Shown here: piece by piece, positions 6,676-21,264 of the stretch | How positions within the stretch are numbered: the first letter of the stretch is position 1 | Layout: each line of letters opens with the position of its first letter | Program-made: the position numbers and the translations under genes | Virus record (IMG/VR): IMGVR_UViG_3300006810_000490 | Location: 1 to 21,264 of that record | Reading direction: 5' to 3' (one strand) | Source: a virus | Length of the DNA stretch: 21,264 nt | Notes under the pieces: generated by a model | Told to the model about the DNA's origin: nothing | Seen by the model: only the letters and a program-made list of their open reading frames with translations | Database searches by the model: none

Positions 6676-7143
6676 ATGGCAGCTATATCTGCACCATTCA
6701 CCGGGCAGAAGACCAAGCTTTACGCTAAATCTAGCGCGCACACCTTGTCATCACTGGCAGCCGGCGACCTAGTTGGTGAAGTACAGAACATCGGCGACAT
6801 TGAGCTTTCAGCCAACGTCATCGAGGTATCAACGTACGGATCTGACTACAAAGGTAAGCTGGTCGGTCAACGAGACTCTGGAACCGTAGACATTAGTCTT
6901 AACTGGGTTCCTTCTTCATCTGCACAAGCAGCACAGGACTTACTCCGCACTTCATACGAAAGCGGCGCTAAGGTTTACCTCGTGATTGTTTGGACAGACG
7001 CGTCAGATAACGTGGCAGCTTGCGACTTTGCAGGTTTTGTTCAGAGCTACGCAATTAGCTCACCACTTGAAGATGTAGTGACAGTCAACGTGACTGTAAA
7101 CATCGACGGAGACGTCACCTTCGACACCGACGGTACGCTCTAA
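6676..7143 (+). CDS. Major tail tube protein
   Basis: A 155-residue, mostly beta protein predicted to form the stacked rings of the tail tube. It has the compact layout of small siphovirus tube proteins: an N-terminal GQKTKLYAKSS strand, the GEVQNIGDIELSANVIEVST strand pair, GKLVGQRDSGTVDISLNWVP, and a C-terminal AISSPLEDVVTVNVTVNIDG strand pair. I see no Ig-like C-terminal extension. It follows the tail terminator by two bases, and a strong intrinsic terminator follows it, as often happens after a highly expressed structural gene. The following frameshifted chaperone pair confirms the position in tail gene order. Confidence 0.92.
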   Translation: MAAISAPFTGQKTKLYAKSSAHTLSSLAAGDLVGEVQNIGDIELSANVIEVSTYGSDYKGKLVGQRDSGTVDISLNWVPSSSAQAAQDLLRTSYESGAKVYLVIVWTDASDNVAACDFAGFVQSYAISSPLEDVVTVNVTVNIDGDVTFDTDGTL

Positions 7144-7146
7144 ACG

Positions 7147-7174
7147 AAAGGCACCTACGGGTGCCTTTTTTTTT
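7147..7174 (+). terminator. Intrinsic transcription terminator after the tail tube gene
   Basis: A perfect hairpin pairs GGCACC (7150-7155) with GGTGCC (7160-7165) around a four-base TACG loop. Three further A-T pairs extend the base of the stem, and nine T residues follow (7166-7174). The loop closed by C-G is a UNCG-class tetraloop (cUACGg), known to be exceptionally stable in RNA. It begins three bases after the tube gene stop and ends before the AAGGAGGAG ribosome site of the chaperone gene. It would lower, or stop, transcription into the chaperone and tape measure genes. Confidence 0.92.
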
Positions 7175-7190
7175 GTTTAAGGAGGAGTAA

Positions 7191-7529
7191 ATGGCTCTTA
7201 GTAAAGATCAGATTCTAGGCGCAGTGGACTTTAGCTTTGTAGAGGTAGAAGTCCCTGAATGGGGAGGCACAGTTCGTATTCGCGGCCTATCGGCAGCAGA
7301 ACGCGACCAGTTTGAGGCACGACTAGGTGTGTCCAACGATTTAACCAATATGCGCGCACGTCTTGTCGTCAGTTGCATGGTCGACGATGACGGTAACCGC
7401 ATTTTTAAGGACAGCGAAGCGAATGAGCTCGGTAAGAAAAACGCCGCGGTGATTACGCGACTGTTCGACCAGGTACGCAACCTTTCTGGCATGTCAGACG
7501 AAGCGTTAGGCATTGCTGAAAAAAACTAG
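7191..7529 (+). CDS. Tail assembly chaperone, short form (lambda gpG analogue)
   Basis: A 112-residue acidic protein with a strong AAGGAGGAG site (7179-7187) before ATG 7191. It reads VDFSFVEVEVPEWGGTVRIR, then LSAAERDQFEARLG, then a helical second half (NAAVITRLFDQVRNLSGMSD), which is the usual layout of the first half of a siphovirus tail assembly chaperone. In lambda, gpG and the frameshift product gpGT coat the tape measure protein and recruit tube subunits. The stop TAG (7527-7529) comes immediately after the slippery heptamer at 7520-7526, so most ribosomes would make this short form and some would continue in the -1 frame. Confidence 0.9.
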   Translation: MALSKDQILGAVDFSFVEVEVPEWGGTVRIRGLSAAERDQFEARLGVSNDLTNMRARLVVSCMVDDDGNRIFKDSEANELGKKNAAVITRLFDQVRNLSGMSDEALGIAEKN

Positions 7530-7852
7530 CATGCCCGGTACGTCGGTTTAAGTTCCGACTTGCGCTTGCTTTAGGTATGACGGTTCGACAACTCGAAACT
7601 CAACTTGAAGCAAGCGAGCTCAACGAGTGGATGGCGTTTTTCAATCTAGAACCCTGGGGCGCTGTCCGCGAGGACTATCGGGCAGGAGTGATCGCCGCAA
7701 CGTTGGTCAACGTCAACGGCGGCAAGAAAGGCGGTAAGCCGGCAGAGGTGACAGACTTTTTCGATCTGTACACCAGGCACACAAACCGTAAGCAAAGCAA
7801 CGAACAACAAATCAACATCTTTAAACGATATGCGGAGGCACGACGTGGCTAA
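7191..7852 (+). CDS. Tail assembly chaperone, -1 frameshift fusion (lambda gpGT analogue)
   Basis: A -1 slip at 7520-7526 joins the 112-residue short form to the frame starting at base 7526, giving a predicted 220-residue protein ending at TAA 7850-7852. The added 108 residues begin LACPVRRFKFRLALALGMTV and continue with the WMAFFNLEPWG and YRAGVIAATLVNV segments. These are hallmark features of the 'T' half of siphovirus chaperones, which often starts with a conserved Cys-Pro and an Arg/Phe-rich stretch exactly like this. The conserved part lies upstream of the first ATG in that frame (7577), and that ATG lacks a good ribosome site, so expression by frameshift is far more likely than independent initiation. 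Confidence 0.9.
7520..7526 (+). promoter_or_regulatory. Programmed -1 ribosomal frameshift site (A AAA AAC)
   Basis: In the zero frame the codons are GAA AAA AAC TAG, so the heptamer A AAA AAC fits the X XXY YYZ rule exactly and is followed at once by the stop. The frame entered by a -1 slip is open to 7852 and encodes the conserved second half of the chaperone. A small hairpin GTCGG/CCGAC (7542-7546 with 7555-7559, eight-base loop) lies 15 bases downstream. It is weak and somewhat farther away than usual for a stimulatory structure. The TAG itself may help by slowing the ribosome. Confidence 0.9.
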
Positions 7853-8417
7853 CTACGACTTTGACATCGTGAAAACCCGTAACGGTGTCTACAACCGCTT
7901 CAAGCTTGAGGGACTTGATGCGATGTGGGTTGATTTGGAACGCATGGCCGGCGAGTTTGCTGGCGACGAGTGTGAGACAGCAGCGGTCAACGCAATGAAA
8001 CCTGTTGAGGCGCGCGTAAAGGGCAACATTGTGCGGCAGGACATCCCTGACACCGGCTCATTGCTTAAGAGCGTGCGATTAGTCGGCTACAACCCCAACA
8101 GATTAGGGCGAGCGCCAAAACGCCGTAAAGGCCTGAGAGGCGCCTCTGTGATGGCCGGTGTTTCGGGCAGACACAGGTCTACATACAAGCGCGCCACTAA
8201 AACGGGATTCAACAAAGGTGACCGAAAGCCGGTGTACGCCTTGCAAAACGAATATGGCACAACCAACCCAACAATTTTCGGCATCGTTCACCCCGAACGC
8301 CCCTTTATGCGGCCTGCGTTTGACGGGTTTGAAGTGTCAATTGGTAACGCATTTAGAGATGAGCTCAAGCGGCGTGTCGCCGTTTGGAAGTACAAAATCA
8401 ACACAGGACGACGATGA
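7845..8417 (+). CDS. HK97 gp10-like minor head-tail/tail protein
   Basis: A protein of 190 residues. I chose GTG 7845 because GGAGG (7834-7838) lies six bases before it; ATG 7830 in the same frame precedes that site and has none of its own. The GTG start overlaps the chaperone stop by eight bases. The C-terminal signature VYALQNEYGT with HPERPFMRPAFDG is that of the HK97 gp10-like family (PF04883), a tail completion type protein, and the N-terminal part has the usual helix with ETAAVNAMKPVEARVKGNI. A basic stretch (about residues 88-125, rich in Lys and Arg) looks like a flexible insertion. It sits between chaperones and tape measure, not in the usual place between stopper and terminator. Confidence 0.82.
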   Translation: MANYDFDIVKTRNGVYNRFKLEGLDAMWVDLERMAGEFAGDECETAAVNAMKPVEARVKGNIVRQDIPDTGSLLKSVRLVGYNPNRLGRAPKRRKGLRGASVMAGVSGRHRSTYKRATKTGFNKGDRKPVYALQNEYGTTNPTIFGIVHPERPFMRPAFDGFEVSIGNAFRDELKRRVAVWKYKINTGRR

Positions 8418-10738
8418 TGAGTGGAGCAGTATTACGTACGTTAGCGGTACGCATTAGCGCCAACACAGCGCAGTTCCGCAAAGACATCGACAAAGTCGAT
8501 AAACGTTTTAAGCGCTTTAGTGGTGGTATGCGACGCGAAGCCATGATGTTCCAAGGACAGATGGCAGCGCTTGGCGCAACCGTAGCAACCGGCTTTGGCG
8601 TAGCGGAAGTAGCGCGCGCAGCAGACGAAATGGTCAACCTTCGTAACAAAATGGGCGCAACGTTTGATACGACACGCGAAGTTGCGAACGGCATGTTAGA
8701 CATCAAGCGTATCGCTAAGGAAAGTCGCTCTGAGCTCGATTCGGTTGGCACCCTATACCAGCGTATTGCTGTATCTACAAAGTCACTAGGCACCTCTCAG
8801 GAGGACGTAGCGAAGGTCACACAAGTCGTCGCCAACTCCTTCTTAATGTCAGGTACGACAGCCTCAGAAGCAGCTAACTCAGCACGCCAGTTCGCCCAGG
8901 GTCTGGCCTCGGGAACACTGCGCGGTGACGAATTTAGATCTGTCTCGGAAAACAACGTTGTACTGACGCAGATGCTTGCAGAAGGCTTAGGCATGACTGT
9001 TGGACAGCTACGCCTGTTCGCGCAAGAAGGTGGCCTGACTGCTGAAACAATTATTCCGATCCTTACCGAAAAACTTCAAGACACAAATACCGCTGTTGAC
9101 AAGATGGCGCTTACGTTAGGGCAGGCAAAAACGCTATTTCGAAACGCGTTTGTTGAAATGATCGATCGGCTCAACCAAACATTTAACCTCGTACCTAAAG
9201 TGTCGAAAGCCATTGGCATTTTAGGCCAGAACATACACCTAGTCGTTCTAGGTCTGGGCGCGATGACCGCAGTTTTAATCAGCCGTCTAGTCGTGGGGAT
9301 GGTGGCGTTTACCGCTGTAACTATAGGCGGCGCTGTAAAGGGAATGGTAATGCTGACATGGTCCATTACCTTGTTTTTAAGTAAAGCTGTGTTTGGGTTT
9401 TTAGGAGCATTAGCCTCTATAACGATGGCGGTGCAGGCATTAGCAACAGCGTTGATTAAAGGGCTGTACATGGCACTGCGTAGAGTGTTCATGCTAATGC
9501 TAGCCAACCCTTTGACGGCAATTATTATAGCTATTGCAGTCTTAGCGGCTGGCGTCGTTTACCTCGTAAGCAAGTTCATGACGATGGAAAGACTCGGCAT
9601 GATTATTACAGGGCTGTCTATGCAGATAGACGGCCTCGTAGACGTATTCAGAGATGTCGGCGATAACATTGGGCACCTTTGGTCGACGCTGATGAACAGC
9701 ATGAAGTTAAAGTTTGCTGACTTCGTAGCATCGCTTGGCAAAGATGAATGGGCAGCCAGCATAAAAGCCGGTATAGAGGACGTCGGCGCGGCTCCAAAGG
9801 GTCGCGGCGGTAAAACTAAAATGAAGATGGGCAGAGAACTCGTTGGTGGCGCGTTTTCGAGCGAGACCGGCCCAACCCTTTCCGAAGCAATGAGTGAAGC
9901 TAAAAACGGCGTCATGGGCGTACTAGGCGCCGGCACTGACGCTGTCATGGGCGGCGCTGGCGCAGCTATGGATGCCCTACCCGACTTTGCAAACTTACAA
10001 CAGGGCTTTGGAGAGTTCGTCAGCGGCGTCGGTACACAAGCCTTGGACGCTATACCAGGCTTCCGCGCATTCTGGGCGGCTCTAAAAGGCGACACAGACC
10101 CAGACGCAGCGGCCGCAGGCCCAGAAGCAGAGAAAGAAGACGTACAGATGTCGTGGGCGGAGCGCTGGCAGCTTGCCATCGCAAAAGTGAAAGAGGCATT
10201 CGGTACGTTGTCGATGGCTGTCAAAGGCCGCGTTAACGCCATGAAGCAGTCGTACGAGACGTGGGACGGTGTTCTTCAAGCTGGAGCACGGCGTAGTAAA
10301 AAGATTGCGGCCCTACAACGCGGACTGATGCTTAAAGAAGCAATCGTTATGCAAGGCAAAGCGATTATGGCAGCTTGGGGCGCGGCCCCGTTCCCGGCCA
10401 ACCTACCAGGCGTTGCGTTGACAACGGCGCAAACGGCTCTCGTGTTGTCAGACATCATGAAGGGTCAGGCACACGACGGCATGGACTCTCTGCCTTCGAC
10501 AGGCACGTACATGCTAGAAAAAGGCGAGCGAGTCGTAAGCTCACGGGCTAACCGCGACCTGACTACGTTCCTTGCTGACCGCAACAACCGTCCGTCTACA
10601 GGCGCTCCGTTGACGCTACAAATCAACGGCGTCGCTGACCCTGACCTCGTCTTTGGCGCGCTCGAACAGCGCCGTAACGAGCTCACCGACATGATCCGCT
10701 CTATCTCTGACGAGAATTTAGTCGCCCCATCATTCTAG
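8414..10738 (+). CDS. Tape measure protein
   Basis: A protein of 774 residues from ATG 8414, which overlaps the previous stop (ATGA) behind AGGA (8405-8408); ATG 8417 is an equal alternative. The conserved tape-measure N-terminal domain covers about residues 65-255 (VNLRNKMGATFDTTREVANG, SGTLRGDEFRSVSENN, GLGMTVGQLRLFAQEGGLT). A hydrophobic region with several membrane-type segments lies at about 275-390. It may insert in the host membrane during DNA ejection. The end carries AHDGMDSLPSTGTYMLEKGE, a motif common at the C-terminus of this family. At the usual rule of about 1.5 angstrom per residue the tail would be roughly 115 nm. I see no lysozyme or peptidase domain in it. Confidence 0.95.
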   Translation: MMSGAVLRTLAVRISANTAQFRKDIDKVDKRFKRFSGGMRREAMMFQGQMAALGATVATGFGVAEVARAADEMVNLRNKMGATFDTTREVANGMLDIKRIAKESRSELDSVGTLYQRIAVSTKSLGTSQEDVAKVTQVVANSFLMSGTTASEAANSARQFAQGLASGTLRGDEFRSVSENNVVLTQMLAEGLGMTVGQLRLFAQEGGLTAETIIPILTEKLQDTNTAVDKMALTLGQAKTLFRNAFVEMIDRLNQTFNLVPKVSKAIGILGQNIHLVVLGLGAMTAVLISRLVVGMVAFTAVTIGGAVKGMVMLTWSITLFLSKAVFGFLGALASITMAVQALATALIKGLYMALRRVFMLMLANPLTAIIIAIAVLAAGVVYLVSKFMTMERLGMIITGLSMQIDGLVDVFRDVGDNIGHLWSTLMNSMKLKFADFVASLGKDEWAASIKAGIEDVGAAPKGRGGKTKMKMGRELVGGAFSSETGPTLSEAMSEAKNGVMGVLGAGTDAVMGGAGAAMDALPDFANLQQGFGEFVSGVGTQALDAIPGFRAFWAALKGDTDPDAAAAGPEAEKEDVQMSWAERWQLAIAKVKEAFGTLSMAVKGRVNAMKQSYETWDGVLQAGARRSKKIAALQRGLMLKEAIVMQGKAIMAAWGAAPFPANLPGVALTTAQTALVLSDIMKGQAHDGMDSLPSTGTYMLEKGERVVSSRANRDLTTFLADRNNRPSTGAPLTLQINGVADPDLVFGALEQRRNELTDMIRSISDENLVAPSF

Positions 10739-11306: not shown

Positions 11307-14300
11307 ATGGTTGATCCGTTAACTATAGGTGTAATCGTAGTCGGCGCACTGACGGCTGCTAGTTATTACCAACAGCGCAAAATGCAACGCGAGGCTGAGA
11401 AACAAGCCAACGAAATGGCCTCCCATCAGATTTCAGGCCACGACAGTAACCGTGCTTTGTACACGGTCTACGGACGAGCCTTGGTCGGCACGACTACGCT
11501 TTATAAGCGTGTCTCGAGAAAGCAAGTGCCGATGGCTAACGCATCCTTTACTAACTACCGTGGCGGCGGCGGCTCACCAGATACATCCGATAAGCGTTGG
11601 GGCCTAAATCGCTTTTTGTACCGTATCTCGTCATTGAGCAACGGGCCGATTGACGGTATCGAAAAAGTGCTGATCGACGGCGAATCGCACCTTGCGTCAC
11701 GATTTACAGCAGGTCACTCGCGTCACTTTGAAGCAGCAGTATCGTTAGGCCCGACAGCGGGTAACTACTTTTCCAACCTAAAAACTACGTACTCAACCGA
11801 TTTCAGTCAGTGGGATTCAAGCAAAAAAGGTCAAGGTGTCGCGTACGTCGTAGAGCGCTTTTGGTTTGATAAGTCTAACCCGGCATACCAGGGCGAACCG
11901 CAAACACAATACTTGGTTCGCGGCCGTAAGCTTTACGACCCGCGACTAGACAGCACCGTTGCCGGTGGCAGCGGGTCGCATCGTAGCGCAACACCATCAA
12001 CGTGGGCGTTTAGCGACAACCCCGCGCTTGCTTTGCTCGATATGCTGACAAACACGGAGTACGGACGAGGCGTTGATTATTCAGAGTGTGATCTGCCTAG
12101 TTTTATAACAGCAGCAAACAAGTGCGACACGTATGTCGACATCCCGGCTAGAGCTACCAACCAAACGGGCAGCCAATTAGTTGTCTACGATCCCCATCTA
12201 GGGGTTACGTACGAGATAGCCGATAACGGCATCATACCTAACTACCGGATGGACCAAATTACGACAGGCTCTTTTGCCAACAAGCAAAAGCGTTTTCGTC
12301 TAAACATGGCTGTCGACAACAGCAAAGAAGTACTCGACAACATACAACAAATACTCCAATCCTTTAGAGCCAACTTGCATCACATCAACGGCGAGTACGC
12401 TGTACACATGGACGATGTGGCTTCGCCTGTTATTACTCTCAATGACGACGACATTATAGGTGGCTTGAAAATATCTCAGGGAGACAGAAAGCAGCGCATC
12501 AATCGCATGACTGCTAAGTTTCTCAACGCAAACAAGCACTACAAAACCGACCAAGTGTCTTGGCCTCCGCTCGATGAAACATCGGGCTCTCAATATCAAA
12601 CCTATCTAACGGCAGACTCCGGTGAGAAGTTACACAAAACTGTGACGCTTACCGGGTGCACTGATTACTACCAGGCTGAAGATATTGCTGAGTACCTAGT
12701 GCGCGAAAGCCGCGTGACGCTCACGGCAACTGGTACTTTTGGCAGTCGCTGTTTTAACTTAGTACCGGGCGACGTCGTAGCACTCGATTACGACAGTGCG
12801 GGTTACAGCGGTAAGTACTTCATTGTCGACCAGGTAGGCGTCGACATTTCGTCGATGAACGTCAAACTCAGCCTGCGTGAATACGACTCGTCGATATACA
12901 CCTGGAACGCCAACAGAGGTAACGAGCCTATTGGTCTGTTCTTCGACGAGGAACAGCAATACAACGTAACGCCTACATCGCCAACTATTGGCACCGTTAG
13001 CGCTGACTCAATTGCGTTAAGCGACGGCACTGCTGCCCTGCGTCTCAACATACCGTTCAGCGACATCCCAGAAGAGGCGTTGTCTGTAGAGATTGGCTGG
13101 TCAGTGCAGAACGCGGACGTTTATACGTCGCAAGTCATACTAGACGAGACCGCCACAAAAGCAGAGTTTTTAATCGGTATTGACGACCAAGTCATAGATT
13201 TACGCATACGCTACTTCGTAGCCAACGCTGACGGTATACAACTACCTAGCGGCTACAGCACGACAACCTTTACTTTACCGGCAGTCAGCGGCACCAAACT
13301 CGACAACATTGAAGACAACGCAACGCGTAACCAGGTGTTTCAACAAGACGCGCAGCCCAGTGGCGGTGCGTACCAAACTGGTGACATTTGGATCGACACC
13401 AACGACAACTTCAAAATGTACATGTACGACAGTGGCGCTTGGGTATTACGCGCTGACAGTCGTATTGCTACAGCGCTGCAAGACGCCGCAGGCGCGCAGT
13501 CTACTGCTGACGGCAAGATTGACACGTTTTATCAAGATAACGCCCCTACTAGTGCGTCAGAAGGCGACCTATGGATCGACACGAACGACGACAACAAACT
13601 TTACCGTTACGACGGCACTAACTGGCAAGCCGCCCGTGACTCAGGTATCGCAGAAGCCATTGCAGACGCAGAAACAGCACAAAGCACGGCTGACGGTAAG
13701 ATTACAACGTTTTTTGCTGCGTCAACGGCCACGCCAACTGCTGAAGGCGTTGGCGACATGTGGTATCAGACTGACAACGCGATCATGCAGCGTTGGAACG
13801 GTAGCACTTGGAACGACGTAGCTAGTTACAACACAGGCGATTTGGCTGATTTAGACACTGTTGGCAACTCGCAGATAGACAACGACTCTATCAACATCGA
13901 TAAGCTCGACGACTTGCAGTCTACTAACTACTCACAAGGCGTCTCGGGCTGGAAGTTAACTAAAGACGGTACATTTGAAACCGGCGATGGTACGTTCCGT
14001 GGCGAGGTGACAGCAACTTCAGGAACCATTGGCGGCTTCAGTATTGGATCAACGGCGCTGACCGCTGGCTCAGGGTCGTCGGCGGTCGGTATCCACACCG
14101 TCAAAGGTATTTACCTTGGCGCTACTTCGTTTTCAAGCTCACCTTTTAGAGTCAACACCGCAGGACAATTAACGGCAACAAACGCGAGCATTACGGGCGC
14201 CGTAACAGCTACCGATGGAGCTATTGCCGGGATCAACATTGACGCAACAAAACTGTACGCAGGGACAGGCGATTGGGCTAATAGCAATACCGGGTTTTAT

Positions 14301-17300
14301 CTCGACAACGCAGGCAAGTTTAGCCTCAAAGATAAGCTTTTCTTTGACCCGTCAAACAACACTCTTACAGTCGACGGTAACATTACTGCTGACGTCATTA
14401 CTGCAAAACAAAACCTTGTGGTTCTAGGCGATTTACAAGCAAGCAGCGTAGCTGCTGGTTCAATTACGCGAGCCATGCTGTCTCAAGACGCGTTAGACGA
14501 AATTTTTGGATCGCTTGCGTCTTCAGTTGGAGGGTCAAACGGCGATTTCAAAGACGGTACGGGAACGTTTACTACGTCTGGCGGTTCTGTGACGCTAGGC
14601 ACGTCCTCTGATAAATTTAATCATGGGTCGTCTGATGTCGAAGTCGAATTCAACATCAATACATTCTTTTATTCCACGACTAACTACACACAAGCGCAAG
14701 CGCAAGCCACGCTTACGTTTGAAGCAACTGCTGACGGCACGTTCAACGATCTGAACTCAGCAGACAAAACACACACACTGCAATTCTTAGAATACGACCT
14801 AAGTTCATACTATGGGTACACGTACCTGGTGTATCACATCAACACTGCAATCACTAAAACGTTTACTAGTGGGTCAGGTAGTGATCTTGCAGACAACACT
14901 GATGTGCAATTTAAAGTTGCAGTTTCCAGCGTGGGGTCAGCATTTACTAATCAAACATTACCGTTTTCTGTTGCCGCAAACGAAGGCGTTACAGGCGTTA
15001 CATCAACAGGCGGCAACGCTGACACGCTCGACAACTTAGACTCAACCGCTTTCCTCCGTTCGAACGTGGACGACACGTTTGACGCTGACCTTACGATTAC
15101 GGGTGATCTTTCACTGCAAGGCGCTCTGAATATCACAGGAGACATAAACAGCTACAACGTCACTGACTTAGACGTTACCGACAAGACGATAACCGTCAAC
15201 AGCGGCAACGCTCAGGAACTAAGCGACGGCTCTGGCCTTATCGTTGATCGCGGCACTGCGGATAGCGCTTCTATTACATGGAGTGAGACAAATGATCGGT
15301 TTGTTATTACGGATGGACTTTCTCTTGAAAACGGCAAAAACCTAAGAATTGCCAACGCTGGGAGCAGTAACGGCCGTTTAGATTTAGCGAACACAACGTC
15401 TACTTATGATTGGCTTTTATATCATCAGGACAATGGGAGCGTGATACTAACGATCAGCGGCACGGGAGGCGGTGAGTTTATTTTCGATGCCGACGCATCA
15501 GATTACACCAGTGCAACGCTTACGGTAGGCGGATCGCAAATAAGCGCTACTAAGATTAGCCAGTGGAATACAGCCTATGGCTGGGGCAATCACTCGACGC
15601 AAAACTACGCTGTCACAACAGGCGACACGTTTACAGGCAATCTGACTCTTGGAACAGGCACTGACAGCACTGCGCTCGTTTTCCCTGATAAAAATGTTGA
15701 CGATGATCCAGATGCCGCAAGTGACAAGCGTCAGCTAATCAAAATGGGCAATGGCGGCAACGGTGGTATGTACCAAACCACTGGTCGCGGCGGTCTTATG
15801 ATTGCGTCTGCTGACGACAGCGTGATCATCGCGTCAGGCGATATTGGGCGCAACTTTGATCCTAACGCAGGCGGACAGAATCCAAACCCTGATTCTGAAG
15901 AGTTATATCTAGTTACAGACGGCGGTATACGTTTTACTACCGGCCTCCAAGGCGGCTTTAGTGGCAGTGCAGACTACACACCTCGAACAGCCATATTAAG
16001 TCAGCATGGGCAGCTTCAAATGGGAACGTCGGGTACTGCTGACAGACCTACGTATTCGTTTAACGGTGACGTTAATACAGGCATGTATAAGCCATCAAAT
16101 GACGTGCTTGGCTTTTCGGCTGGCGGCCATCAGCGTATGCGCGTTACCACAAGCGCAGTACAAAACTATGTAAAGCTACATACGCAAACGTACACGGCGA
16201 GCAGTACGCTGGATTTCACCAATGTTTTTCGAGTCAATGGTCTTGACGTAGCTTCGCACACATACAGTGGACAACAACAAATACGTTTTTATCATGGTTC
16301 TTGGGCAGGCTACTATTACCTAAACAGCGGCAGTCCAAACGGTGAAAAAGAAAACATCCGCTTTACCTCGCACGGTCAAACTCAAACTAACAACAAGATC
16401 GAAATTAATGACGGCACTGCATGGCGCAAGGTACTGACAGAAACCAGTAACATCACGGTTGGCAAGGTAACGGCGTCAGGTAGCAACAACGTATATGCAG
16501 GCGTGTTCACTGGCGAGACTGCTCCAAACACTACGTCACTCGGCGTAAAGATCGTAACCACAAACGGAGCAAACGATGTCGCCCTACTCGTAGAGCAAAC
16601 AGACGGTACTGACCTGTTTAAAATTACAGGTCAGGGCGTAGGTTCATTCAGTCAGCGTATTAGCGTCCAAAACCAAGATATAACGGGTACACGAATAGAG
16701 AATTGGCAGGACGCTTATAGCTGGGGCGATCACGCTGATGCTAATTATTTATTATCAGAGACTAGCCACACGGATGTCGTGGTCGATGGTGACTTTAACT
16801 CCACTGGACTGATGAAGCGTGGATCATCAGCGGGCTCGTATAGCGTTATTGCTGATAACTCTAGCAATTGGAACACAGCTTACGGCGACAAAATTAACAG
16901 TGCGAACTTTAATACTAGTACAGGCATTCTGACTCTTACGCGCCAAGACGCAGGCACAGTAACAGTTGATCTTGACGGCAGATTCCAAGGTATTGATAGC
17001 GCACACTCTCGGTTTACGCCGCCAGATCAAGGCAACCTTTCGACTTATCCCGTGTACTACAAGGTCGCAGAGGTCAACACAGGCAATGGGGGTTTACACC
17101 TTAAAGGTCAACTTAATAACCACGTAGAGAGTTTCGGCACACAAGACTTTGACATCACTATTTACGGACGGGAGCAAAACTCAGGACAGAACGTAGAGAT
17201 TGCAGGTAGTTTTAACGTCGGCAAGTCCGGCGTTGGCGTCCGTGTGGTGCAGGCCACCAATACAGGCACCTACTACCGATATGACGTTTACATTGTGCTT

Positions 17301-20300
17301 ACACGCTATTCACTAGTGCGTGTGGATCTATACAAGTTTGGCTCATCGTCTCTTGTATCTAGCCCCACAAGCACAACGACTCAGCCGACAGGGTTTGCGG
17401 TCGAGCTAGATACCACGAGCAAAATAGAAGGCTCGTATGTCATACAGAACAGCCTAATTTACAACAATCTGCACTCAGGCTCAGTACTAACCACCGCAGG
17501 AGCGATAACGGCAGGCGGATCGTCCTCTTCGCTGGGTTACTACGTAGGGTCAACCCAAGTTATCAATGGAAACCGTGACCTAGTAAACATAGGCACGATC
17601 GGATCAGGTGCTATTACCAGTAGCTCGACTATCACAGCAACCACAACTCTCAGCGCACAGGACGGGCTGTTTTCTGGTTACGTAGACGCTAACGGATTGG
17701 TTAACGCCTATATGTTCCGTGTCGATGATACGACGGTCATAGATAGCAATCGCAACATATTAAACATAAACAGTATAAGACTCGACTCTACTGCTGATGT
17801 CACCCTTAGCTCAACGGGACACGCGTTTCAGACTGGCTCGGCAAACGGTGTCAACCTAGCGATAGATAACAACGAAATCCAAGCTAGAAACAACGGATCT
17901 AGTTCTTCCTTGTATTTGCAGGGAGATGGCGGCGCTGTCTATGTCAACGCCAATCTTTCTGCAAAAGTATTTTTTCAAGGTGGCGCAACGACGGCTAGTG
18001 CAACTATTGAAGGAGCGCCAAATCAAGACGCAGTGCTAAAACTGCTAGAAACTGGGACCGGGGATGTAGGCGCACATTTGTACTACGACGGTGGCGACAA
18101 CAAGCTACATATAAAAACAGGCAACAGCACCCCAGCGACGCGCATGACGTTTTTGCGCGACACCACGGCAGTAGGTATTGGAAATGTTAACCCTAGTAAA
18201 ACGCTTGATGTTGCAGGCGAGATACGAAGCACCGCAAAAATTACTGTAGACCAAGGATCGTATGATCCTGTCCAAAGTGCAGCAATGTCGTACTCGGGGC
18301 TAGTGATCCAAAGTAATGACGGCAACATGGACCTGCTGTCATACGACGACAACTCTTCAGTCGCAAACAACATTGGCTTTGGACGATTTTCGTCAACTGA
18401 CGGATCGCTTATTCATAAGTTTGGCATTACGCATTGGGCAAACACGGGAAGCCAAGGAAGCAACACAGGCAATAAGCTGTCGTTTAACTACGGTACAAAC
18501 ACAAACCCCTGGAGCAACGCTGAAAAATTCTCAATAACGTCAGGCGGCGATGTTACTGCCAGCAACAACATAACAGCACAAGGCTCTTTCATTACGGCAA
18601 CTGCATCTAGCGCTCAAGGTATATACGCCGGAAGTACGCAAGTCTTTGAAGGCTCAACGCGTAACCTCAAAAATATTGGAACAATTAGTGCTGGCTCTAC
18701 GACAGTAAATGGGCAGCTAACCTTTACTAGTAATTTAAACCTTGGCAGTGGACTCACGCGACTGGTGTGGGGTTGGGGCGCAAGTAGCGGCTCAAGTTTA
18801 CGCAATTACTTAGCACCACGTAATGACGCAGATGACGCGTGGAACTATAGCCATGAGTTTGGCTACGATCACAATGCGAACGCATGGTACATAGACGATC
18901 AACTGCATCTTGGGCATCGGCTAACGCACAAAGATGACACAGACACCTACCTGCAATTTGATGCTAACCGTATCCGTCTTATTGCGAACGGCACTACAAA
19001 GATTGATACAAATAACACGTATGTAACGACTGGGGACATTGCTGACTTCATTGAAAGCGAAGCTGACACGCTTGACTCGGTAACAGGTCGAGGCGCTACG
19101 ACCACAAACGACGTGCAAGTCGGTCACTTAGGTGTAGATGGCGCGTCAAGTTCTAGCTACCCGTTATACGTGCACGGTAGCATTGCTCAATCGTCAGGAA
19201 GCATTTACTCATTCGGTGACTTCATCATGGGTAACGGTGGGCTTAAGAAAGGCTCAACCACTGTCATTGACAGCAGCCGCAACATACTTAACGTCGGCAC
19301 CATAACGAGCAGTGGCAAGCTGGAAGTTAATCAAGCAGGCAATGGAACGAGCAATGTACCCAGCAGTGTTGCTGAGCTTTCTGGGCAAGAATCTACTGGC
19401 GTACTCAAAGCGCTGTCCCTAGTAAATAGCGTAAACGCTACATTTGGCAACGGAACAGAGCTTGCATTCCATAACGCCAGTATGTATTCGCCAACGGGAG
19501 CAGTGAGGGTCATCCAAGCTGGCGATGTAGTTACCGATTCAAAAATGGTTTTGCAAATCTATCGTGGCGGCCTAAAAGATGCGGTTGTAATTGACCACGA
19601 TGAAAACATGACTGTCGGCAACAACATAACGGCAGACGGGTCTTTTATAACAGCCACCTCATCCAGTGCACAGGGGATCTATGCTGGAAGCACGCAAGTG
19701 TTTGAAGGCTCTACCCGTAACCTAAAAAATATAGGCACGATTTCGTCGGGAGCGCTCACCTCAACAAGCGCCGTATCCGGTCTCGCAATTAGAATTAGCG
19801 GCACTGACGTTATTACTTCCAACCGCGTTGTAAAGCCAACGCAATATCAGGGACAAGATTTCGTAAGAACAGGAACGACAACAGCTAGCATTCATAAAAT
19901 GTACGGCGTTGTTTTGGGCCACCAGCCAGAAGACGGCCACGTTACGTCTCCGTTTTTTCATAACGATTTAGGAAACTTCGAGGCTCGCGGAGGAACAGTT
20001 ACTGTCGGGGGGCTAAGTTATACCCCTGCTATGACTAACGCATTTAAAGCGCACGGCAACTCTGCTTCCTGGGGCAACGCAAATTACAGCGGATCGACGA
20101 TGACGGTCACGCTTACCACTTTGCCAAAGAATTTAAATTACGGCGGCTACATTGGCATTTCTTTTGGCAATAGCTCTTGGGCACCAGCGTCATTGAAAAT
20201 TGAAATATCTACTGATGGCGGCTCTACGTGGACAACGCGACTTAACGACTCGTCAACGAAAACGATATATTTCACAACTACGGGCACAGGCGGCACTCCA

Positions 20301-21264
20301 CTTAACGCTATTCGATTTACGATAGGGCAAGCTGTCAATACCACGTCGATACGTGTCACAAATATTTGGGCATACAATTACAACAGTAATGGGATGCACA
20401 ATTACTTCATCGACAAAGCTGGCGACACTTTGTACGGTGAACTTAGCTTTAATGATGCAAACACCAAGCTGCTAGAGGGCGGTGGTAATCGGATAAGAGT
20501 ACAGACTGATTCTGGTTATGTTGAGGTCGGCGCAGGAAATACTGGTCACGCTCATTTTGTTACTGATAGACCAGAATACTACTTTGACAAACAGATAAAG
20601 GTAGACACTGGAATCATAGGGTCTTACAACGAAGATCTCGTGCTTCGGCGTGCAGGCAATTCTGGCGATCAGATAACACTAACTACGACAGGCGTCACTT
20701 TTGCCTCTGGCTACAATCTTAGTATGTCTGGCTCTATTTCTTCGGGCGCTATCACGGCTACAGGCCAGATCTACACGACTCGTGCTGATCGCGCGTTTTA
20801 CGCTAGTAATTCGTCAACTTACGTGCAAGTAGGGCCAAACAACCAGGGCGCGGCAGGTACATTTGGAGCGCACCGATTAACAACAAATACTGGTTTGGAT
20901 TACACAACATACGTAGGTTATGACTGCTATTACGATGACTCGGATGAAAAGTGGCACGCATTACGCACAAACCTAGGCCGCAAGTGGAAAACTAATTTCG
21001 GTGGATATCACCAAAACAGATTTACAATAAGCACGTATGACGGCGGCGGAACGTCAGGCAGTAGTATTTCGGCTGGATGGCTTGAAGCAGATTGGGAAGA
21101 AAAGTTCGGTGTAGATGCGGCAGGCGTGGTCGATATCGGTGACAGTCTTAGAATTGGCAGCACAACCGTTATTACTTCTAGTCGTAACCTAGTAAATATT
21201 GGCACCATCTCATCGGCCGCTATTACTAGTAGTGGTAATATGTCACTTACAGGTGAACTCGATA
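11307..21264 (+). CDS. Giant gpJ-like tail hub fused to a repeat-rich tail fibre (3' end outside window)
   Basis: The frame from ATG 11307 stays open to the right edge: 3319 complete codons and no stop. A moderate GGGGA site lies at 11293-11297. Residues 5-21 are hydrophobic. The tail-hub part (about 1-555) shows WAFSDNPALALLDMLTNTEY, a segment with NSKEVLDNIQQILQSFRA, DDDIIGGLKISQGDRKQRIN and the RESRVTLTATGTFGSRCFNL stretch, matching lambda gpJ order (Phage-tail_3 type). An FN3/Ig-like domain follows (about 556-660), then three repeats of about 61 residues (676-842), a GWKLTKDGTFETGDGTFRGE segment at about 881, and thousands of residues of Gly/Ser/Thr/Asn-rich beta repeats. The hub should sit at the tail tip and the fibre should bind host receptors. 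A C-terminal chaperone or adhesin domain is likely past the edge. Confidence 0.93.
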   Translation, partial: MVDPLTIGVIVVGALTAASYYQQRKMQREAEKQANEMASHQISGHDSNRALYTVYGRALVGTTTLYKRVSRKQVPMANASFTNYRGGGGSPDTSDKRWGLNRFLYRISSLSNGPIDGIEKVLIDGESHLASRFTAGHSRHFEAAVSLGPTAGNYFSNLKTTYSTDFSQWDSSKKGQGVAYVVERFWFDKSNPAYQGEPQTQYLVRGRKLYDPRLDSTVAGGSGSHRSATPSTWAFSDNPALALLDMLTNTEYGRGVDYSECDLPSFITAANKCDTYVDIPARATNQTGSQLVVYDPHLGVTYEIADNGIIPNYRMDQITTGSFANKQKRFRLNMAVDNSKEVLDNIQQILQSFRANLHHINGEYAVHMDDVASPVITLNDDDIIGGLKISQGDRKQRINRMTAKFLNANKHYKTDQVSWPPLDETSGSQYQTYLTADSGEKLHKTVTLTGCTDYYQAEDIAEYLVRESRVTLTATGTFGSRCFNLVPGDVVALDYDSAGYSGKYFIVDQVGVDISSMNVKLSLREYDSSIYTWNANRGNEPIGLFFDEEQQYNVTPTSPTIGTVSADSIALSDGTAALRLNIPFSDIPEEALSVEIGWSVQNADVYTSQVILDETATKAEFLIGIDDQVIDLRIRYFVANADGIQLPSGYSTTTFTLPAVSGTKLDNIEDNATRNQVFQQDAQPSGGAYQTGDIWIDTNDNFKMYMYDSGAWVLRADSRIATALQDAAGAQSTADGKIDTFYQDNAPTSASEGDLWIDTNDDNKLYRYDGTNWQAARDSGIAEAIADAETAQSTADGKITTFFAASTATPTAEGVGDMWYQTDNAIMQRWNGSTWNDVASYNTGDLADLDTVGNSQIDNDSINIDKLDDLQSTNYSQGVSGWKLTKDGTFETGDGTFRGEVTATSGTIGGFSIGSTALTAGSGSSAVGIHTVKGIYLGATSFSSSPFRVNTAGQLTATNASITGAVTATDGAIAGINIDATKLYAGTGDWANSNTGFYLDNAGKFSLKDKLFFDPSNNTLTVDGNITADVITAKQNLVVLGDLQASSVAAGSITRAMLSQDALDEIFGSLASSVGGSNGDFKDGTGTFTTSGGSVTLGTSSDKFNHGSSDVEVEFNINTFFYSTTNYTQAQAQATLTFEATADGTFNDLNSADKTHTLQFLEYDLSSYYGYTYLVYHINTAITKTFTSGSGSDLADNTDVQFKVAVSSVGSAFTNQTLPFSVAANEGVTGVTSTGGNADTLDNLDSTAFLRSNVDDTFDADLTITGDLSLQGALNITGDINSYNVTDLDVTDKTITVNSGNAQELSDGSGLIVDRGTADSASITWSETNDRFVITDGLSLENGKNLRIANAGSSNGRLDLANTTSTYDWLLYHQDNGSVILTISGTGGGEFIFDADASDYTSATLTVGGSQISATKISQWNTAYGWGNHSTQNYAVTTGDTFTGNLTLGTGTDSTALVFPDKNVDDDPDAASDKRQLIKMGNGGNGGMYQTTGRGGLMIASADDSVIIASGDIGRNFDPNAGGQNPNPDSEELYLVTDGGIRFTTGLQGGFSGSADYTPRTAILSQHGQLQMGTSGTADRPTYSFNGDVNTGMYKPSNDVLGFSAGGHQRMRVTTSAVQNYVKLHTQTYTASSTLDFTNVFRVNGLDVASHTYSGQQQIRFYHGSWAGYYYLNSGSPNGEKENIRFTSHGQTQTNNKIEINDGTAWRKVLTETSNITVGKVTASGSNNVYAGVFTGETAPNTTSLGVKIVTTNGANDVALLVEQTDGTDLFKITGQGVGSFSQRISVQNQDITGTRIENWQDAYSWGDHADANYLLSETSHTDVVVDGDFNSTGLMKRGSSAGSYSVIADNSSNWNTAYGDKINSANFNTSTGILTLTRQDAGTVTVDLDGRFQGIDSAHSRFTPPDQGNLSTYPVYYKVAEVNTGNGGLHLKGQLNNHVESFGTQDFDITIYGREQNSGQNVEIAGSFNVGKSGVGVRVVQATNTGTYYRYDVYIVLTRYSLVRVDLYKFGSSSLVSSPTSTTTQPTGFAVELDTTSKIEGSYVIQNSLIYNNLHSGSVLTTAGAITAGGSSSSLGYYVGSTQVINGNRDLVNIGTIGSGAITSSSTITATTTLSAQDGLFSGYVDANGLVNAYMFRVDDTTVIDSNRNILNINSIRLDSTADVTLSSTGHAFQTGSANGVNLAIDNNEIQARNNGSSSSLYLQGDGGAVYVNANLSAKVFFQGGATTASATIEGAPNQDAVLKLLETGTGDVGAHLYYDGGDNKLHIKTGNSTPATRMTFLRDTTAVGIGNVNPSKTLDVAGEIRSTAKITVDQGSYDPVQSAAMSYSGLVIQSNDGNMDLLSYDDNSSVANNIGFGRFSSTDGSLIHKFGITHWANTGSQGSNTGNKLSFNYGTNTNPWSNAEKFSITSGGDVTASNNITAQGSFITATASSAQGIYAGSTQVFEGSTRNLKNIGTISAGSTTVNGQLTFTSNLNLGSGLTRLVWGWGASSGSSLRNYLAPRNDADDAWNYSHEFGYDHNANAWYIDDQLHLGHRLTHKDDTDTYLQFDANRIRLIANGTTKIDTNNTYVTTGDIADFIESEADTLDSVTGRGATTTNDVQVGHLGVDGASSSSYPLYVHGSIAQSSGSIYSFGDFIMGNGGLKKGSTTVIDSSRNILNVGTITSSGKLEVNQAGNGTSNVPSSVAELSGQESTGVLKALSLVNSVNATFGNGTELAFHNASMYSPTGAVRVIQAGDVVTDSKMVLQIYRGGLKDAVVIDHDENMTVGNNITADGSFITATSSSAQGIYAGSTQVFEGSTRNLKNIGTISSGALTSTSAVSGLAIRISGTDVITSNRVVKPTQYQGQDFVRTGTTTASIHKMYGVVLGHQPEDGHVTSPFFHNDLGNFEARGGTVTVGGLSYTPAMTNAFKAHGNSASWGNANYSGSTMTVTLTTLPKNLNYGGYIGISFGNSSWAPASLKIEISTDGGSTWTTRLNDSSTKTIYFTTTGTGGTPLNAIRFTIGQAVNTTSIRVTNIWAYNYNSNGMHNYFIDKAGDTLYGELSFNDANTKLLEGGGNRIRVQTDSGYVEVGAGNTGHAHFVTDRPEYYFDKQIKVDTGIIGSYNEDLVLRRAGNSGDQITLTTTGVTFASGYNLSMSGSISSGAITATGQIYTTRADRAFYASNSSTYVQVGPNNQGAAGTFGAHRLTTNTGLDYTTYVGYDCYYDDSDEKWHALRTNLGRKWKTNFGGYHQNRFTISTYDGGGTSGSSISAGWLEADWEEKFGVDAAGVVDIGDSLRIGSTTVITSSRNLVNIGTISSAAITSSGNMSLTGELD
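13332..13833 (+). repeat. Three tandem protein repeats of about 61 residues in the hub-fibre protein
   Basis: Copies begin near 13332, 13515 and 13698; the second and third are exactly 183 bases apart. Each copy has a short start ending in TF or VF, then a GDxW(I/Y)xTDN or TND strand and a YxYDG or QRWNG turn with a Trp. The cores read GDIWIDTNDNFKMYMYDSGA, GDLWIDTNDDNKLYRYDGTN and GDMWYQTDNAIMQRWNGSTW. Copies one and two end in an alanine-rich linker closing with AQSTADGK. The repeats are clearly related in protein but have diverged in DNA. They probably form small beta modules joined by helical linkers between the hub and the fibre shaft. Confidence 0.88.
15564..16898 (+). repeat. WNTAYGWGNH-type motifs in the fibre
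   Basis: Three related motifs occur in the giant protein: WNTAYGWGNH (15564-15593), WQDAYSWGDH (16704-16733) and WNTAYGDKIN (from 16869). Each is preceded by a short segment ending in Ile-Ser-Gln, Ile-Glu-Asn or Ser-Ser-Asn. Similar motifs are familiar from long fibres of environmental phages, where they often precede a new shaft repeat block. Confidence 0.75.
16059..16152 (+). other. FNGDVNTGMY fibre motif region (chaperone-associated type)
   Basis: The giant protein here reads FNGDVNTGMYKPSNDVLGFS and then AGGHQRMRV. This 'gd.nTGmy.p..d.l.fs.gG..r.rv' pattern is common in phage fibres that end in a self-cleaving intramolecular chaperone (peptidase S74 type). A second such sign, VGIGNVNPSKTLDVAGEI, lies at 18171-18224. 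The chaperone domain itself is not in the window. Confidence 0.65.
18564..18698 (+). repeat. Long-range duplicated fibre segment, copy 1
   Basis: A 45-codon segment beginning NNITAQGSFITATASSAQGI and passing through YAGSTQVFEGSTRNLKNIGT is repeated at 19620-19754, 1056 bases downstream. By my alignment by eye only about four residues differ, while about 25 codons differ silently. The segment is part of the fibre shaft of the giant protein. Confidence 0.85.
19620..19754 (+). repeat. Long-range duplicated fibre segment, copy 2
   Basis: Partner of 18564-18698. The copy begins NNITADGSFITATSSSAQGI and keeps the stretch YAGSTQVFEGSTRNLKNIGT unchanged in protein. Many third codon positions differ from copy 1. 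The copies are separated by 352 codons of unrelated or weakly related fibre sequence, so this is a shuffled block and not a tandem repeat. Confidence 0.85.

Follow-up and report, generated by a model that had tools for sequence, protein, structure and literature searches.

The virus record analysed here (hereafter, the window) is 21,264 bases long, and its identified genes follow the order typical of siphoviruses: genes for the terminase large subunit, a head-tail connector, a head completion protein, and a tail completion/terminator protein are followed by those for the tail tube protein, a chaperone pair, a weakly matched tail-completion-like protein, and the tape measure protein. The chaperone pair consists of two overlapping ORFs flanked by the tail tube gene on one side and, after one extra gene, by the tape measure gene on the other (Table 1). 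This extra gene (7845–8417), which has a GTG start after GGAGG, shows a weak match to PHROG 5/222 (‘tail completion or Neck1’). Its position is common to close viral relatives, and its sole match in the phage collection was weak.

Table 1 Features of the chaperone locus and its flanking genes (positions in the window)
Feature	Position	Strand	Basis
Tail tube gene	6676–7143		PF16460
0-frame ORF, G-like tail assembly chaperone, 112 aa	7191..7529	+	PHROG 344, predicted fold
Slippery heptamer A_AAA_AAC, in phase, adjoining stop	7520..7526	+	Sequence; homologous heptamer in nearly all relatives
0-frame stop TAG adjoining heptamer	7527..7529	+	Sequence; same abutment in 57/75 relatives
−1 frame T-like extension, 108 residues (113–220 of fusion), then stop	7526..7852	+	PF06223, PHROG 337
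17 codons LACPVRRFKFRLALALG, without start codon, reachable only via shift	7526..7576	+	Conservation, third-position bias
Family downstream stem	7533..7576	+	Pair counts, 16 relatives
Stem outer helix	7533–7541/7568–7576	+	3/9 pairs lost in window
Stem inner helix	7542–7546/7555–7559	+	Intact in window
Strong alternative hairpin, −27.5 kcal/mol	7563..7616	+	Predicted; also predicted in relative L004
Tape measure gene	8417–10738		PF20155

The first ORF is preceded by a AAGGAGGAG ribosome-binding site, and its product matched PHROG 344 (tail assembly chaperone) with an E-value of 5.6e-29. When an AlphaFold model of this first half, built from 33 sequences (pLDDT 80), was compared to PDB entries, the top hit was 2ob9, the HK97 tail assembly chaperone (Foldseek E 1.7e-4; Z 9.4 across 98 residues), although identity in structural alignments was just 19–25%. 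The same entry also ranked first among PDB entries, with a weak score (E 0.021), when the first half was used in a sequence-profile search. By both its PHROG 344 assignment and its closest fold, the first ORF is a G-type chaperone gene.

In the −1 frame, a TGA at 7517–7519 closes the upstream side, and the frame is open from 7520 to 7852. As an earlier note on this DNA had read directly from the sequence, this frame opens into LACPVRRFKFRLALALG, continues with a Met at 7577, and ends at 7852. The same note had taken the stretch for the second half of a siphovirus chaperone, an assignment borne out by a match to Pfam PF06223 (minor tail protein T) with an E-value of 2.9e-17, which passes the curated cut-off. 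The second half also matched PHROG 337 (E 7.1e-21); a profile search of this half against solved structures gave no match. The second frame is therefore T-type as defined by the PF06223 domain. When the joined protein of 220 aa was compared to phage families, as had been suggested in the note, it matched PHROG 344, 337, 14766, and 25875, the last two across the junction.

The two ORFs meet at the heptamer AAAAAAC, which was correctly described in the note as lying in zero-frame phase (GAA AAA AAC TAG) with the stop codon directly after it. In-phase heptamers of the XXXYYYZ type occur 15 times in the 6896 codon positions of the window’s genes (four of the [A/G]3AAAN form), and the chance that one of them adjoins a given stop is about 1 in 460. 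Given this abutment and the direct opening into a Pfam-recognised partner (PF06223), a chance arrangement is untenable.

Scans of viral contigs, bacterial genomes, and isolate phages yielded about 100 distinct relatives. In these, the in-phase X_XXY_YYZ site that leads into the −1 frame close to the first ORF’s end is conserved. An in-phase heptamer was present at the homologous place in 48 of 48 close viral loci, in all distinct distant viral loci examined, in 24 of 25 bacterial-genome loci (AAATTTG in one), and in nine of 12 isolate phages; no recognisable in-phase heptamer was found at this place in REQ1, P1312, Mae-JY09, and locus L147. Among 75 heptamer-bearing relatives, GGGAAAC was the most frequent form (49), followed by AAAAAAC (20), AAAAAAA (2), AAAAAAG (2), GGGAAAG (1), and GGGTTTC (1). 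The zero-frame stop directly followed the heptamer in 57 of these relatives, and came one codon later in 10. Records of the phages Dubu, phiSASD1, and Jflix2 annotate the same two-piece joined gene. The −1 overlap is also kept in Rhodococcus phage REQ1 (L055 1492–2186), with GAATCTTTCGAG where its relative Jflix2 has GAGGGTTTCGAG; this site without a standard heptamer may represent a lost site, another mechanism, or a sequence error.

On the second-half protein tree, the first triplet of the heptamer was exchanged between GGG and AAA 10 times, with at least seven exchanges forced by well-supported branches, a count that is soft (7–10) in a tree of few columns and some long branches. No mixed GGG/AAA triplet was seen at the site. 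Within the final 60 codons of this ORF’s upstream partner, the first ORF (31 sequences), GGA and AAC were the only degenerate columns without synonymous differences, a count whose weight is limited by the relatedness of the sequences, and GGA makes up just 20 of the 127 glycine codons in this region.

The composition of the site also bears on whether the fusion could arise during transcription. If the polymerase were to add or drop an A on the seven-A run (7519–7525), some mRNAs would encode the fusion directly, and runs of at least six A are indeed present at the site in the window and in about a quarter to a third of the relatives. However, most relatives have GGGAAAC in the same place and phase, as do the nearest relatives outside of the window’s small clade. 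Because this predominant form contains no long homopolymer, we consider transcriptional slippage to be very improbable.

The 17 residues between the heptamer and the first Met are strongly conserved among relatives. Pairwise base differences among close relatives in this segment number 290, 154, and 777 at −1-frame positions 1, 2, and 3, respectively. Because these differences fall mainly on third positions, the segment evolves as protein in the −1 frame, as expected if it is translated. In the window, no ATG, GTG, or TTG exists in this frame between 7520 and 7577. The earlier note had called the ATG at 7577 the only one in this frame; it is the earliest start there, but a further ATG is found at 7631.

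This first start raises the alternative that the T half is a separate protein made from 7577 by internal or coupled initiation. A Met is kept at this position in 70 of 95 relatives, and certain phage records list T as a gene of its own. Nonetheless, no ribosome-binding site lies ahead of 7577, the conserved residues upstream of it show the protein-like pattern of change described above, and 43 of the 95 relatives have no ATG, GTG, or TTG at all from the heptamer to the first-Met point. Because 25 of the 95 relatives have lost the first Met, independent initiation is not the conserved route. A separately initiated T protein is thus highly improbable. Even less credible is the idea that a single gene was split by a mistake made in the A-run during sequencing or assembly. 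Homopolymers do invite such mistakes, and the virus contig is unfinished, but the split recurs at the same codon in dozens of independent sequences (contigs, isolate phages, and bacterial genomes), most of which carry G_GGA_AAC.

Based on these results, we interpret the locus, with a probability of roughly 95%, as the frameshift cassette through which a long-tailed phage of the lambda/HK97 type encodes its tail assembly chaperones; a programmed −1 shift would give G and a G-T fusion. Frameshifting is strongly supported by the homology seen in each half, the fold predicted for the first half, the phasing and conservation of the heptamer, the GGG/AAA exchange, and the constraint on the 17 residues. 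The gene order (tail tube, pair, tape measure) also counts for a frameshift cassette, whereas the four relatives without the heptamer, the low tendency to shift reported for A_AAA_AAC in E. coli (PMC5009743), and the weakened outer helix in the window count against it. Under the frameshift reading, most ribosomes would read 7191–7529 and stop at the TAG to produce the G protein. A minority would slip back by one base on A_AAA_AAC, as the tRNAs for Lys and Asn re-pair on AAA AAA, and would then read on to 7852 to produce the 220-aa G-T fusion; a downstream stem or the stop codon may stimulate this slippage. By analogy to lambda, G would act as a chaperone coating the tape measure protein, and the rare fusion would recruit the tail tube protein through its T part; the proportion of G to G-T fusion would be important.

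Downstream of the heptamer, the earlier note had described a weak hairpin at a distance of 15 bases (7542–7559). This hairpin is the inner part of a larger stem of near relatives, in which the outer helix begins about 6 nt past the heptamer. In eight relatives, the first 54 bases of downstream RNA fold with about −17 to −27 kcal/mol. Across 16 close sequences, the two-helix structure had 85.7% of cells paired and 12 two-sided changes, and 0 of 500 shuffles equalled it on these measures, bearing in mind that related sequences can beat shuffles even without structure; slid versions of the structure paired far less. In a second clade, the stem is continuous over 12 pairs and has modest support (about 50 of 500 shuffles scored as high), and forcing one RNA structure on both clades yielded little covariation energy. 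Compared to synonymous-codon shuffles, the region folds better in the window (z −2.9) and in about half of the tested relatives.

The note had proposed that the site may work mainly through the slippery run and the stop codon. This may hold, but relatives keep a conserved downstream stem, and a strong hairpin is predicted in the window itself. A tentative scenario, which we regard as unlikely, is that the window’s small clade rewired its stimulator: GGG would have changed to AAA, the ancestral stem (about 6 nt past the heptamer) would have decayed, and a strong hairpin 36 nt downstream would have been gained, with the shift being set mainly by the A-run, the adjoining stop, and the late hairpin.

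The cassette is the lambda G/GT device, which is already described in many phages, although the lambda slippery site is G_GGA_AAG, whereas the window has A_AAA_AAC directly beside the stop. The G/GT arrangement is widely conserved among long-tailed phages, and in lambda, the binding partners are the tape measure protein for G and the tail tube protein for T (PMC5009743). With regard to the site itself, AAAAAAC directly adjoins the stop of the first gene in Acinetobacter phage Loki (gp12/gp13; PMC5313236), and GGGAAAC is located directly before this stop in Burkholderia phage KL1 (gp18/gp19; PMC3483164). AAAAAAC is also found in phiCbK and GGGAAAC in Colossus (PMC3556154), and both forms exist in haloarchaeal viruses (PMC5009743). 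Like the window, Loki and KL1 have an extra gene between the chaperones and the tape measure gene, a likeness that is based on published layouts of different phages with different hosts. Such an intervening gene is described in KL1, HK97, and Loki (PMC3483164, PMC5313236). The Streptomyces phages Dubu and phiSASD1, which share 42–43% identity with the window fusion over 93–95%, have G_GGA_AAC followed by TGA in their annotated joined gene (i.e., GGG where the window has AAA); unlike in the window, no extra gene separates their pair from the tape measure gene. In E. coli, A_AAA_AAC is reported to be much less shift-prone than A_AAA_AAG (PMC5009743), and for this reason the preference for AAC among the relatives is of modest interest.

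With this locus, the known cases of tail-chaperone frameshifting gain a large family, most of which is uncultured. It also provides a comparative pattern, in which the slippery triplet alternates between GGG and AAA, no intermediate having been observed, and the rest of the site is fixed. Gene-calling software would break the fusion in two and drop 17 real residues. For specialists, the cassette is not a surprise but what would be expected; it is real and well supported, but ordinary.

Two other features of the window were recorded. A terminator-like hairpin with a T-run (7146–7178), located in the gap that separates the tail tube and chaperone genes, was the strongest in a scan for such sites, about two of which are expected by chance in the window. 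Farther downstream, a single open frame of >3300 codons (11307–21263) runs off the window end and probably encodes a very large tail tip or fibre protein.
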